The notes beneath the pieces were generated by a model, which had not been told where the DNA came from, made no database searches, and worked only from the letters and a program-made list of their open reading frames with translations. Below, in pieces: positions 55,888 through 60,033 of a stretch of DNA of 64,000 bases (positions are counted from its first letter, which is position 1; every line of letters starts with the position of its first letter). Origin of the DNA: an uncultured Alphaproteobacteria bacterium (GTDB taxonomy: Bacteria > Pseudomonadota > Alphaproteobacteria > Rs-D84 > CACZYB01); assembly GCA_944392955.1 (NCBI GenBank), contig CALXYK010000015.1:1-64000 (forward strand), read 5' to 3'. Made by a program: the position numbers and the translations under genes.

Positions 55888-56682
55888 TCATTTTTCCGAA
55901 GGGAAAATATTCAAATCAGAATTTAACAAGGATATATTTTCCGAATCCGAATATTTACCTTCCTGAAGATTCGTTGCATCATCTTTATTTGTTAAGGATG
56001 CCAGCAAGATATTTCTCACTTTTCCTAAATCACCTTCTTCAATAATTTGAGAAACAAAACCATCTAAATCATATTTATTTATAAATTTCAATAATTTATC
56101 ATATTTTTCTGAAAATATAGAAATCATTCCAGCCAAAGAATCGTCCTTTTTCACTAATCTTCGCAAACTTTCATCAAAATGAGGTGTAGATTCTCTTTTA
56201 TCAAGAATGATTTTGCATACAGAATATAGTTTATTATCCCCATCTTTTGACAATGCATCGTAAACAACAACATCCGAAGCCATAGAGGTCTGAGATATAA
56301 TATCTGCTATAATTTGGCTCATATTATTAAATATAATAGGTAGATTCGTAAAGAACTGATTCGTAAATCCTAATTTTCTTACTTCAATCAATGACTTAGC
56401 AATAGTTTGTATTCCTGACATAGAAGATTTATTTGATTGCAATAAGTTAAATAAAATATTCTTATTCTGATTATTTGAAACAATAACACAGAAAATTAAC
56501 ACCAGCATAAGCAGTAATATAATAGGCAATGCAACAGCAAATAAAATATAAGACATATCACTAGGTAAAATTCCTCCGACTCCTGTCATATTGTAGGTTG
56601 AAAGGAAATAATGTGTTCCCCATACCCCCCAAAATACACATAAAAAAAACACAAATCCAATAACAGAATATAGTAGTATCAT
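55888..56682 (-). CDS. Membrane protein with long cytoplasmic or periplasmic helical tail
   Basis: 264 residues. Two membrane helices (about 3-25 and 46-71) are joined by a short loop with NMTGVGGILPSDMSY. Then a tail of about 190 residues, predicted helical and Ser/Asp/Lys-rich (SSMSGIQTIAKSLIEVRKLG, KDDSLAGMISIFSEKYDKLL, DDATNLQEGKYSDSENI). No Cys pattern or catalytic motif. The hydrophobic pair recalls MotA/ExbB-like or DotI-like anchors, but I see no firm match. GGGAG lies upstream of ATG 56682. It is divergent from the nrdD region and about 60 bp before sufB on the same strand. Confidence 0.7.
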   Translation of the reverse strand: MILLYSVIGFVFFLCVFWGVWGTHYFLSTYNMTGVGGILPSDMSYILFAVALPIILLLMLVLIFCVIVSNNQNKNILFNLLQSNKSSMSGIQTIAKSLIEVRKLGFTNQFFTNLPIIFNNMSQIIADIISQTSMASDVVVYDALSKDGDNKLYSVCKIILDKRESTPHFDESLRRLVKKDDSLAGMISIFSEKYDKLLKFINKYDLDGFVSQIIEEGDLGKVRNILLASLTNKDDATNLQEGKYSDSENISLLNSDLNIFPSEK

Positions 56683-56794
56683 CCCAGTTTTCTCCCATTT
56701 TATTTTAAACTTTTAAAGTATTATATCATAAAAAAAAGTTAAATTATAGATTTTTCTACATTTTTTAATAGTCAAGAAATTTATTTACAAAAAA

Positions 56795-56810
56795 ACACAA
56801 AATATAGTTT
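56795..56810 (+). promoter_or_regulatory. NrdR box 1
   Basis: ACACAAAATATAGTTT matches 14 of 16 positions of the NrdR consensus (ACACwATATATwGTGT). It lies 31 bp, i.e. three helical turns, from the second box, the canonical NrdR pair spacing. Confidence 0.82.
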
Positions 56811-56837
56811 GATTTCTTATCAAAAACACTATATCTT
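56809..56837 (+). promoter_or_regulatory. Probable nrdD promoter between the NrdR boxes
   Basis: TTGATT (56809-56814), then TATCTT at 56832-56837 (17-bp spacer) or TATATC at 56830-56835 (15 bp). The -10 lies inside NrdR box 2, so NrdR binding would block polymerase. Confidence 0.55.
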
Positions 56838-56841
56838 GATA
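56826..56841 (+). promoter_or_regulatory. NrdR box 2
   Basis: ACACTATATCTTGATA matches about 12 of 16 consensus positions, with a perfect left half. NrdR represses ribonucleotide reductase genes when dATP is high. Confidence 0.78.
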
Positions 56842-56889
56842 TCAGAGACAAGGAAATAAAAGTTTTTAATAGGAAAGGGAATAATAACC

Positions 56890-57255
56890 ATGGATAATCC
56901 AAAAGAAACAAATGTAGTATCAATTACCCCATTCAATAAATTAGACATCACATAGGTAGTAAAAAGGAATGGAGAAGTTGCTGATTTTAACATAGAAAAG
57001 ATTGCACATGCAATAAAACAGGCTGGTGAAGCCACAACTCCCTTTTCCCAAGATGAACTATTAAAATTAACAAATACTGTCGCAAAATTCCTAAATCATA
57101 AATATAGTGGTGAAGAAGCCGTATTCATAGAAAAAATCCAAGATGTCGTAGAACAGGCTTTAATAGATTCTAATTACTATGAGACAGCAAAGGCTTATAT
57201 ATTATATAGAGAAAAACGTGCACAAAATAGAGATGCCGAAAAAATCAAAATAGAT
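56890..57255 (+). pseudogene. nrdD: nrdD N-terminal ATP-cone region, interrupted by an in-frame TAG
   Basis: ATG 56890 opens a frame continuous with nrdD except for one TAG at codon 22 (56953-56955). Before it: 21 residues (MDNPKETNVVSITPFNKLDIT). After it: VVKRNGEVADFNIEKIAHAI and the rest of an ATP-cone (FLNHKYSGEEAVFIEKIQDVVE, YYETAKAYILYREKRAQNRD), all intact and in frame up to the GTG at 57256. In ATP-cones the residue before VVKRNG is commonly Lys, and AAG to TAG is one base change. The ATP-cone binds dATP/ATP and switches the enzyme off or on. Either the region is read through, or it is lost, or the base is an error. Confidence 0.8.
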
Positions 57256-58938
57256 GTGGAAAAATCTATCTCCGAATACCTAGAACAATTAGACTGGCGA
57301 GTAAATGAAAATGCAAATCAAGGTTATTCATTAGGAGGAATGATTTTAAATATTTCGGGTAAAGTTGTTGCAAACTATTGGCTTTCATACATTTATCCAA
57401 AGGAAATAGGTGATGCACACAGAAACGGAGACTATCATATACATGATTTAAGTATGTTATCTGGATATTGTGCAGGTTGGTCTTTAAGGGCATTATTAGA
57501 AGAAGGCTTTAACGGAGTTCCTGGCCATGTAGAATCTGTTCCACCAAAGCATCTATCATCAGCAATAGGTCAAATGGTAAACTTTATGGGAACATTACAA
57601 AATGAATGGGCTGGTGCACAGGCTTTCTCATCAGTTGATACTTATCTTGCTCCGTTCGTAAGAATTGATAATATGACATACGATCAGGTAAAACAAAAAA
57701 TTCAAGAACTTATCTACAACCTTAATGTCCCAAGTCGTTGGGGAACACAAACACCATTTACAAACTTTACTTTTGACTGGGTATGTCCAAAGGATTTAGC
57801 TCCTCAACACCCTAAAATCGGAGGTAAAGAACTAGATTTCACCTATGGTGAATTACAAAAAGAAATGGATATGATAAATAAAGCATACATAGAAGTTATG
57901 TCAGCAGGTGATGCAAAGGGACGTCCATTCACATTTCCTATTCCAACTTATAACATAACAGATGACTTTATTTGGGAAGGTGAAAATGCAGACTTATTAT
58001 TTGAAATGACTGCAAAATACGGCTTACCATATTTCCAAAACTTTATGAATTCCGACTTAAAACCAACAGATGTTCGTTCTATGTGTTGTCGTTTAAGATT
58101 GGATGTAAGGGAACTATTAAAAAGAGGAAACGGACTTTTCGGTTCCGCAGAACAAACTGGCTCAATTGGTGTTGTTACAATAAATTGTGCAAGACTAGGA
58201 TATAATTACAAGGGAAATTTAGAAGGATTGTATTATCGCCTTGATCAACTAATGGAACTTGCAAAAACAAGTCTAGAAATAAAAAGAAAGACCATACAAA
58301 AGTTAATGGACGGCGGATTGTATCCTTTCACAAAACGATATTTGGGTTCACTTCGCAACCATTTCGCAACAATAGGTGTAAATGGTGTAAATGAAATGAT
58401 TAGAAACTTTTCTAATGACGAATACGATATAACAGATCCAAGGGGACACAAAATGGCAAGTGATCTTCTTGAACATATAAGAAATAAAATGGTTGAATTC
58501 CAAGAAGAAACTGGCAATTTATATAATTTAGAAGCAACCCCAGCGGAAGGAACGACATACCGATTCGCAAAGGAAGATGCAAAACGTTTTGCTGATATAA
58601 TACAGGCAGGCACAAAAGAAGCTCCTTACTACACAAATTCAACACAAATACCTGTAAATTATACTGACGATCCTTTTGAAGTATTGGATATGCAGGATGA
58701 TTTGCAAACAAAATATACTGGTGGAACTGTTCTCCATCTTTATATGGCAGAAAGGATTTCTAATATAAATACATGTAAAAATATCATAAAAAGGGTATTT
58801 GAAAATTACAGAGTTCCATATATAACAATAACTCCAACATTCTCAATATGTCCAAAACATGGATATATTGCAGGTGAACATGAATATTGTCCTATATGTG
58901 ACGAAGAAATTTTATCAAAAACAGGTACTAACCAGTAA
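57256..58938 (+). CDS. nrdD: Anaerobic ribonucleoside-triphosphate reductase, catalytic part (no glycyl-radical tail)
   Basis: 560 residues from a GTG that has no ribosome site, so the true start is probably further up (see the TAG-interrupted region before it). The class III core is complete: SLGGMILNISGKVVANYWLS, HRNGDYHIHDLSMLSGYCAG, PSRWGTQTPFTNFTFDW, RSMCCRLRLD (active-site thiyl Cys), NLEATPAEGTTYRFAKEDA and the zinc-site region SICPKHGYIAGEH-x2-CPIC. It stops shortly after CPICDEEIL, before the usual RVxGYxRPV glycyl-radical loop, which is encoded by the next gene. It makes dNTPs without oxygen, using formate and a glycyl radical made by NrdG. Confidence 0.94.
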   Translation: MEKSISEYLEQLDWRVNENANQGYSLGGMILNISGKVVANYWLSYIYPKEIGDAHRNGDYHIHDLSMLSGYCAGWSLRALLEEGFNGVPGHVESVPPKHLSSAIGQMVNFMGTLQNEWAGAQAFSSVDTYLAPFVRIDNMTYDQVKQKIQELIYNLNVPSRWGTQTPFTNFTFDWVCPKDLAPQHPKIGGKELDFTYGELQKEMDMINKAYIEVMSAGDAKGRPFTFPIPTYNITDDFIWEGENADLLFEMTAKYGLPYFQNFMNSDLKPTDVRSMCCRLRLDVRELLKRGNGLFGSAEQTGSIGVVTINCARLGYNYKGNLEGLYYRLDQLMELAKTSLEIKRKTIQKLMDGGLYPFTKRYLGSLRNHFATIGVNGVNEMIRNFSNDEYDITDPRGHKMASDLLEHIRNKMVEFQEETGNLYNLEATPAEGTTYRFAKEDAKRFADIIQAGTKEAPYYTNSTQIPVNYTDDPFEVLDMQDDLQTKYTGGTVLHLYMAERISNINTCKNIIKRVFENYRVPYITITPTFSICPKHGYIAGEHEYCPICDEEILSKTGTNQ

Positions 58939-59000
58939 ATGTTTTTGGTATTGTAAAAGCAAACTAAAAATAGTATAATAAAAAGAAGGAGGAGAAAAAA

Positions 59001-59204
59001 ATGAAAATGTTTGAAACAACACTTGATAATACAAAAAGAACTAAATGTGAAATATGGACCAGGGCTATGGGTTATTGCCGTCCTGTATCAAATTTTAACA
59101 AGGGGAAAAAATCTGAATTTTATGAAAGAAAATATTTCACAGAACAAAAAACATTATCCTCTATGGAATGCTTAGATTGTCATTGTGAACAAAAAATAGC
59201 ATAA
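59001..59204 (+). CDS. Stand-alone glycyl-radical domain of anaerobic ribonucleotide reductase
   Basis: 67 residues. CEIWTRAMGYCRPVSNFNKG (16-35), followed by K-x-EFYERKYF, is the C-terminal glycyl-radical segment of class III reductases: R-x2-GY-x-RPV-x2-FN-x-GK-x2-E, with the radical Gly at residue 24. A Cys-rich tail (MECLDCHCEQ) follows. AGGAGGAG lies just before ATG 59001. The gene is in another frame from nrdD, 62 bp after its stop, with several stops between, so it is not a simple frameshift. It would have to dock on the NrdD core so that Gly24 reaches the thiyl Cys, as the spare-part protein GrcA does for pyruvate formate-lyase. Confidence 0.85.
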   Translation: MKMFETTLDNTKRTKCEIWTRAMGYCRPVSNFNKGKKSEFYERKYFTEQKTLSSMECLDCHCEQKIA

Positions 59205-59212
59205 GGAATAAA

Positions 59213-59238
59213 AAACTCTCTTCCCGAGAGTTTTTTTT
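59213..59238 (+). terminator. Intrinsic terminator between the reductase genes and nrdG
   Basis: AAACTCTC-TTCCC-GAGAGTTT (59213-59233) followed by TTTTT. It would lower nrdG expression relative to the reductase. Confidence 0.9.
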
Positions 59239-59304
59239 ACCCAATATTTTTTGATTTCAGAAAATTACGACTAAATAATTTTTTTATTTTTACATGGAGT
59301 CGTT

Positions 59305-60033
59305 ATGGATGTAAATTCAAATATAATAGTTGGTGGTTTAGTCCCGTTTACAACAATAGATTATCCTTCAAAAATGTCTGCTGTAATATTTTTACAGGGT
59401 TGTCCATGGAGATGTATTTATTGTTCCAATCCACATCTATTTGAATTTCGTCGTCCAACACAACAGGACAAATCCAACTGGCAATATATATTATCTTTAT
59501 TACAAAAAAGGACTAAGATTCTTGATGCCGTAGTATTCAGTGGTGGTGAAGCAACAGCACAAGCCCAAGAAATAATAGAGGCAATAAAAGACATAAAACA
59601 ATTTGCTCCACATTTTAAATTCGGGCTTCATACTAATGGTTGTTTTCCTGATAAACTAGAAATGTTATTACCATATATTGATTGGATTGGACTTGATATA
59701 AAGGCTCCATGTAAAAAATATGAACAAATTACAAAAGTAAAAGGTAGCAGTGAGCAAGCATTTTCCTCATTAAACTTATTATTAAAATATAACAAAGATT
59801 TTGAGGTCCGAACAACTGCCGACCCTACTATATTAACAAAAGATGATATCTTAGAAATTGCTGAACAAATATCAAAAATAGGTGTAAAAACTTATGCAAT
59901 TCAAAAATATAGACCTGTTGATAAAAACAATCCAAACAACCCACCATCAACAGAAATAATGCAATTTTTCACTGACAAAGAATTTGAAAAAAAGTTAAGG
60001 GAACTAATCCCTAACCTAACATTAAGATTTTAA
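59305..60033 (+). CDS. nrdG: Anaerobic ribonucleotide reductase activating protein (radical SAM)
   Basis: 242 residues. The radical-SAM motif C-x3-C-x2-C is C33, C37, C40 (QGCPWRCIYCSNP). It is preceded by GLVPFTTIDYPSKMSAVIFLQG and followed by VVFSGGEATAQ and GLHTNGCFPD, typical of the longer NrdG2-type activases rather than the 150-residue E. coli NrdG. It uses SAM and a 4Fe-4S cluster to place the glycyl radical, here on the small separate protein. TGGAG lies before the ATG. Its stop overlaps the convergent HhH gene by 4 nt. Confidence 0.94.
   Translation: MDVNSNIIVGGLVPFTTIDYPSKMSAVIFLQGCPWRCIYCSNPHLFEFRRPTQQDKSNWQYILSLLQKRTKILDAVVFSGGEATAQAQEIIEAIKDIKQFAPHFKFGLHTNGCFPDKLEMLLPYIDWIGLDIKAPCKKYEQITKVKGSSEQAFSSLNLLLKYNKDFEVRTTADPTILTKDDILEIAEQISKIGVKTYAIQKYRPVDKNNPNNPPSTEIMQFFTDKEFEKKLRELIPNLTLRF

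Follow-up and report, generated by a model that had tools for sequence, protein, structure and literature searches.

A putative NrdR operator upstream of the class III ribonucleotide reductase gene nrdD in an uncultured alphaproteobacterium

Do two palindromic sites upstream of nrdD form an operator for the repressor NrdR, and what do they tell about a reductase whose glycyl-radical loop is encoded apart from its main chain and whose gene carries an in-frame TAG? The locus lies on contig 15 of an AT-rich genome of 915 kb that is 95.6% complete, and the stretch analyzed (64,000 nucleotides) is referred to below as the window. A preliminary description had reported two NrdR boxes 31 bp apart over the nrdD promoter, and had taken them as a sign that an odd split reductase is under normal dNTP-dependent control and in use. 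The features discussed in the following are:

56795-56810, + strand: putative NrdR box 1, ACACAAAATATAGTTT; 14/16 to the consensus, identical across six genus genomes
56809-56837, + strand: possible sigma-70 promoter, TTGATT-17-TATCTT; 8/12 by reading, weak, overlapping box 1 at its end and box 2 in its middle
56811-56825, no strand: spacer between the boxes; 15 bp, less kept (63% mean identity in the genus)
56826-56841, + strand: putative NrdR box 2, ACACTATATCTTGATA; 12/16, jointly with that of genome G002 the lowest-scoring box 2 in the genus
56890-58938, + strand: nrdD, class III ribonucleotide reductase with ATP-cone and catalytic domain, assigned by profile matches; in-frame TAG at codon 22
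56953-56955, + strand: the in-frame TAG; Lys (AAA, two genomes) or Gln (CAA, three genomes) in the five other genus genomes
59001-59204, + strand: glycyl-radical-loop ORF, 67 aa; matches the end of the Pfam NRDD profile (531-562 of 562)
59210-59236, + strand: terminator-like hairpin separating nrdG from the glycyl-radical ORF; + strand fold z -4.55
59305-60033, + strand: nrdG-type activase; TIGR02495 NrdG2 at 181.4 bits (cut-off 131.15)

The box pair upstream of nrdD

Both boxes were scored against ACACWATATATWGTGT, which we take to be the NrdR box consensus. The scores of 14/16 and 12/16 and the start-to-start distance of 31 bp given in the preliminary description were reproduced, and the pair, which ends 48 bp 5' of the nrdD start, exceeds chance expectation as detailed below. 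C4 and G13, the conserved C and G pair, are present in both boxes, whereas in box 2 the T at position 14 is missing. The spacing also fits binding of an NrdR tetramer as described earlier; the 15-bp spacer falls within the range of 14-17 bp that, besides 24-27 bp, is reported in PMC12051234 to bind NrdR. According to the same study, strong binding requires both boxes, and four NrdRs bound most strongly when the spacer measured 15, 16 or 17 bp.

In an AT-rich genome, palindromes of this kind might arise by chance, and single boxes are indeed no commoner here than expected. With up to three mismatches, the window contained two single sites versus 2.23 expected, and the forward strand of the genome contained 34 versus 56 for the reversed control pattern. 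A genome scan for single boxes is thus uninformative, because the control matched more often than the motif itself. The pair behaves differently. When a pair was defined by a summed score of at least 26, at least 12 in each box and a spacing of 31 or 32 bp, the nrdD pair was the only one in the window, versus none in 300 order-1 simulated 64-kb sequences, and 20,000 simulated versions of the 207-bp intergenic region gave none. A lone NrdR-like site is therefore weak evidence and the pair is strong evidence. Together with the better preservation of the boxes than of the spacer and leader, and with the link between the pair and the presence of nrdR (both described in the next section), this leaves a chance origin hardly credible.

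A partner was also sought 30-33 or 40-43 bp from each of the 34 genome sites. Only the nrdD site has a good, phased partner (sum 26), and none of the other 33 sites has a well-phased partner with a sum of at least 25 that would point to a further NrdR target. The runner-up on contig C10 reaches a sum of 24 at 43 bp and lacks the G at position 13. The one other two-mismatch site of the genome (14/16; contig C6:2083-2098, L003:1501-1516) is located between an ndk-like gene, which matches the nucleoside-diphosphate kinase profile at 139 bits and thus under the cut-off of 155, and dnaQ (DNA polymerase III epsilon). This site was rejected as a target: it has lost C4, is partnerless and is absent before the same gene in the other five genomes of the genus, where the best matches reach 10-12 of 16, and it is probably a chance match.

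NrdR operators often, but not always, overlap the site of RNA polymerase. For the nrdD boxes, an overlap with the likely -35 and -10 elements had been proposed, and this part of the earlier reading is weak. The candidate elements TTGATT (56809-56814) and TATCTT (56832-56837), separated by 17 bp, match the sigma-70 consensus at 8/12 positions by reading, and a consensus promoter scan that needs 9/12 listed no + strand site at the boxes (13 sites found in 56650-59330 vs 13.3 expected). On this evidence, the overlap is only plausible.

A second conserved element is present nearby. GTCAAG (56771-56776) starts 24 bp 5' of box 1 in 9/9 family genomes with an nrdD locus. Its reverse complement, CTTGAC, may serve as the -35 element of a divergent membrane-protein gene, which is present in seven of these nine genomes, and of the suf genes beyond that gene. 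NrdR might act on this divergent promoter as well.

The regulator nrdR and conservation of the pair

An nrdR gene, on whose presence the earlier reading depended, was found on contig C8 as an ORF of 185 aa (TIGR00244, 162.1 bits; cut-off 124.65). The encoded protein has a Zn ribbon and an ATP-cone domain and retains D15 and R17, the residues reported in PMC9110341 to contact the conserved C/G pairs of the 31-bp register. Whether nrdR shares the pair had been proposed as a check: in a 3.6-kb stretch around the gene there was no good pair, the best one scoring 21 of 32. Other nrd genes offered no target for the same comparison, because neither NrdA/NrdJ (PF02867) nor NrdB (PF00268) had a match in this genome; NrdA/NrdJ had no match in the six genus genomes either.

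Conservation of the boxes before nrdD in relatives, the other point on which the preliminary description had made its reading depend, was seen at genus level, where the spacing of 31 bp is kept in 6/6 genomes (this genome counted). Mean identities in these six genomes were 100% for box 1, 83% for box 2, 63% for the spacer and 58% for the leader, and those in nine family genomes were 89%, 85%, 50% and 52%, respectively. Upstream of the boxes, the block 56690-56760 reaches 80% identity in the genus, close to the value for box 2, but 59% in the family; box 2 therefore stands out clearly from this flank at family level only.

For the wider comparison, pairs were searched at spacings of 30-33 bp with a summed score of at least 24. 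This threshold was chosen once first results had been seen, and thresholds of 23, 25 and 26 also gave the association reported here; in simulated regions, a sum of 24 was reached in 0/2400 and a sum of 23 in six. In the named collection, in which the nearest relatives of this nrdD are metagenome-assembled genomes (MAGs; best, "Alphaproteobacteria bacterium, Water_deer_Rectum" with 94% protein identity), 51 of the 80 loci had a pair, comprising 47/61 with nrdR and 4/19 without it (Fisher p = 1.8e-5, ignoring relatedness). In these calls, L067 with a partial nrdR (96 bits) was counted as positive and L050 with a 19-bit match as negative. The four pair-bearing loci without nrdR are from MAGs, which may be incomplete, and 12 of the 14 nrdR-positive loci without a pair are titled other than Alphaproteobacteria or Rhodospirillaceae. 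A search of 59 genomes gave a match in 50, and the 30 best of these, namely this genome and 29 of its relatives, formed a further set (L098-L127). A pair was found in 29/30 of these loci, including one in L121 (sum 25) at an unusual place that is probably a different site. The exception is G047, a 96% complete genome without a pair, whose NrdR match (117.9 bits) is below the cut-off. Two genomes may have lost the repressor recently, as judged from their sequences: in G048 (C3:19701-20140) the nrdR match is broken into two parts, one of which contains two in-frame TGA codons, and G024 (98% complete) has no nrdR match.

Four of these loci (L099, L100, L103 and L107) duplicate L018, L019, L020 and L022, with the same nrdR coordinates and scores and the same nrdD sequence scores, and were left out of the two counts that follow and of the GTCAAG count. 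Among the remaining 106 loci, 76 had a pair, and all four C4 and G13 positions were kept in 74 of these, although the score itself favors these positions. The spacing in the 76 pairs was 30 bp in 12, 31 bp in 25, 32 bp in 13 and 33 bp in 26. In PMC12051234, the linker has been suggested to set the tolerance of NrdR for box spacing. In an alignment of 71 NrdRs, mostly from genomes with a pair, no length change was found between the Zn ribbon and the ATP-cone, and linker length was therefore rejected as the determinant of spacing. In family f5 (L110-L127), the boxes are 33 bp apart (17-bp spacer) in 17/18 loci, and all 17 NrdRs of these 33-bp genomes have a one-residue insertion in the ATP-cone. 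As the cause of the 33-bp spacing this insertion was rejected as well: G047, which lacks the boxes, has it, and other 33-bp genomes do not.

NrdR thus very likely controls nrdD, because nrdR is present, the pair is conserved before nrdD and the pair goes together with the presence of nrdR. We regard it as highly probable that this pair serves the nrdD transcription unit as the operator for an NrdR repressor switched by dATP and ATP.

The split reductase and the in-frame TAG

Assignment of nrdD is based on NF006126 (1043 bits, cut-off 548) and TIGR02487 (490.6 bits, cut-off 326), both for 57256-58938, and on Pfam matches to the ATP-cone and NRDD profiles. The Cys-rich end (CPKHGY...CPIC) remains in the large ORF. 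In class III reductases, the catalytic chain carries the glycyl-radical loop at its C-terminus; here the loop is off the main chain in a separate ORF, and we infer that NrdD works as two chains. The preliminary description had called this arrangement odd, whereas a separate glycyl-radical ORF proved usual among relatives: of 110 loci, 98 were split, 2 were fused and in 10 the loop was not found. These counts include this genome (L098) and the four duplicates, all split, and 93/105 of the other distinct genomes were split. Split loci also occur in Burkholderiales-titled MAGs and in Parasutterella. Further downstream, the hairpin at 59210-59236 was assigned to the + strand by reading, as the terminator scan lists it on the minus strand only. 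Because this hairpin precedes nrdG and no second box pair is present in the window, the activase may escape direct NrdR control.

Whether the reductase is in use is a separate question. The boxes had been taken to support this, but an operator does not show that the protein is made, and this copy of nrdD carries a TAG at codon 22; hence, the boxes do not show a reductase in use. Better evidence that nrdD has been needed comes from its low dN/dS in the genus and from the lack of any other ribonucleotide reductase match. Compared with the five other genus genomes, dN was 0.05-0.08 and dS 1.1-1.4 (near saturation), giving a dN/dS of 0.04-0.07, and nrdD is thus under strong purifying selection.

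The explanation of the TAG that we judge most likely, at somewhat better than even chances, is an assembly or base-calling error in an otherwise intact and ordinary unit, which is compatible with the operator. The gene is the only ribonucleotide reductase found and is strongly selected, and the position holds a sense codon in all five of the other genomes of the genus; on the other side, two base changes separate TAG from either AAA or CAA, the codons that occur in the genus (one from AAG, which is seen in G006 of the family). Reading of TAG as a sense codon is not favored, because no CUA anticodon was found among the 37 tRNAs detected and TAG terminates 6/49 mechanically picked ORFs of at least 120 aa in the window, although in an incomplete genome this is not proof. 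The same two observations would suit a nrdD that has been newly broken by a true nonsense codon, with boxes that are still a real operator but are becoming a relic, and with dNTPs obtained from elsewhere. Such a loss would also agree with the low score of box 2, the weakest in the genus with that of G002, and with the absence, 3' of the TAG, of any in-frame ATG, GTG or TTG before the GTG at 57256, a codon that lies beyond the ATP-cone. It is nevertheless improbable, given the 660 open codons 3' of the TAG, the low dN/dS (at saturated dS) and the lack of another reductase match in a 95.6%-complete genome. Very improbable, finally, is a real amber codon that is read through at a set level, by which the dNTP supply would be limited twice, by NrdR at the promoter and by inefficient translation at codon 22.

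Predicted regulation and comparison with known systems

From NrdRs studied in other species, we infer tetramer binding, dATP/ATP switching and repression at this locus. When dATP is plentiful, NrdR with ATP and dATP would form a tetramer, whose two Zn-ribbon pairs would bind the boxes, which are separated by about three turns of the helix. Bound NrdR would kink the DNA and exclude RNA polymerase, so that less class III reductase and less of the separate glycyl-radical subunit would be made. When dATP falls, NrdR with ATP alone would release the DNA, and nrdD would be transcribed. Thus, of the ordinary dNTP-dependent control proposed before, the control of nrdD by NrdR is very likely, and its dependence on dNTPs is carried over from the studied NrdRs.

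The arrangement resembles that of nrdDG in Listeria monocytogenes, which also has two NrdR boxes before nrdD and an NrdR with Zn ribbon and ATP-cone; there, the spacer is 16 bp vs 15 bp here and the boxes overlap the RNA polymerase site (PMC12051234). In contrast to L. monocytogenes, nrdD is the only ribonucleotide reductase found here, its glycyl-radical loop has an ORF of its own and a terminator-like hairpin precedes nrdG. The nrdJ gene behind the nrdRJ operator of Streptomyces coelicolor encodes a class II reductase. This operator, known from a solved NrdR-DNA structure, has the same 31-bp C/G register (9/18 and 40/49), and the S. coelicolor NrdR likewise has D15 and R17; the operator precedes nrdR and nrdJ there, whereas no good pair is located near nrdR here (PMC9110341).

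The probable operator before nrdD, well backed by the comparisons, is of an ordinary kind. The natural variation in spacing (30-33 bp) without a linker change in 71 NrdRs bears on the linker suggestion made in PMC12051234. For an uncultured lineage with a small genome, our results indicate that standard dATP-sensing control very likely acts on what is apparently its only ribonucleotide reductase.
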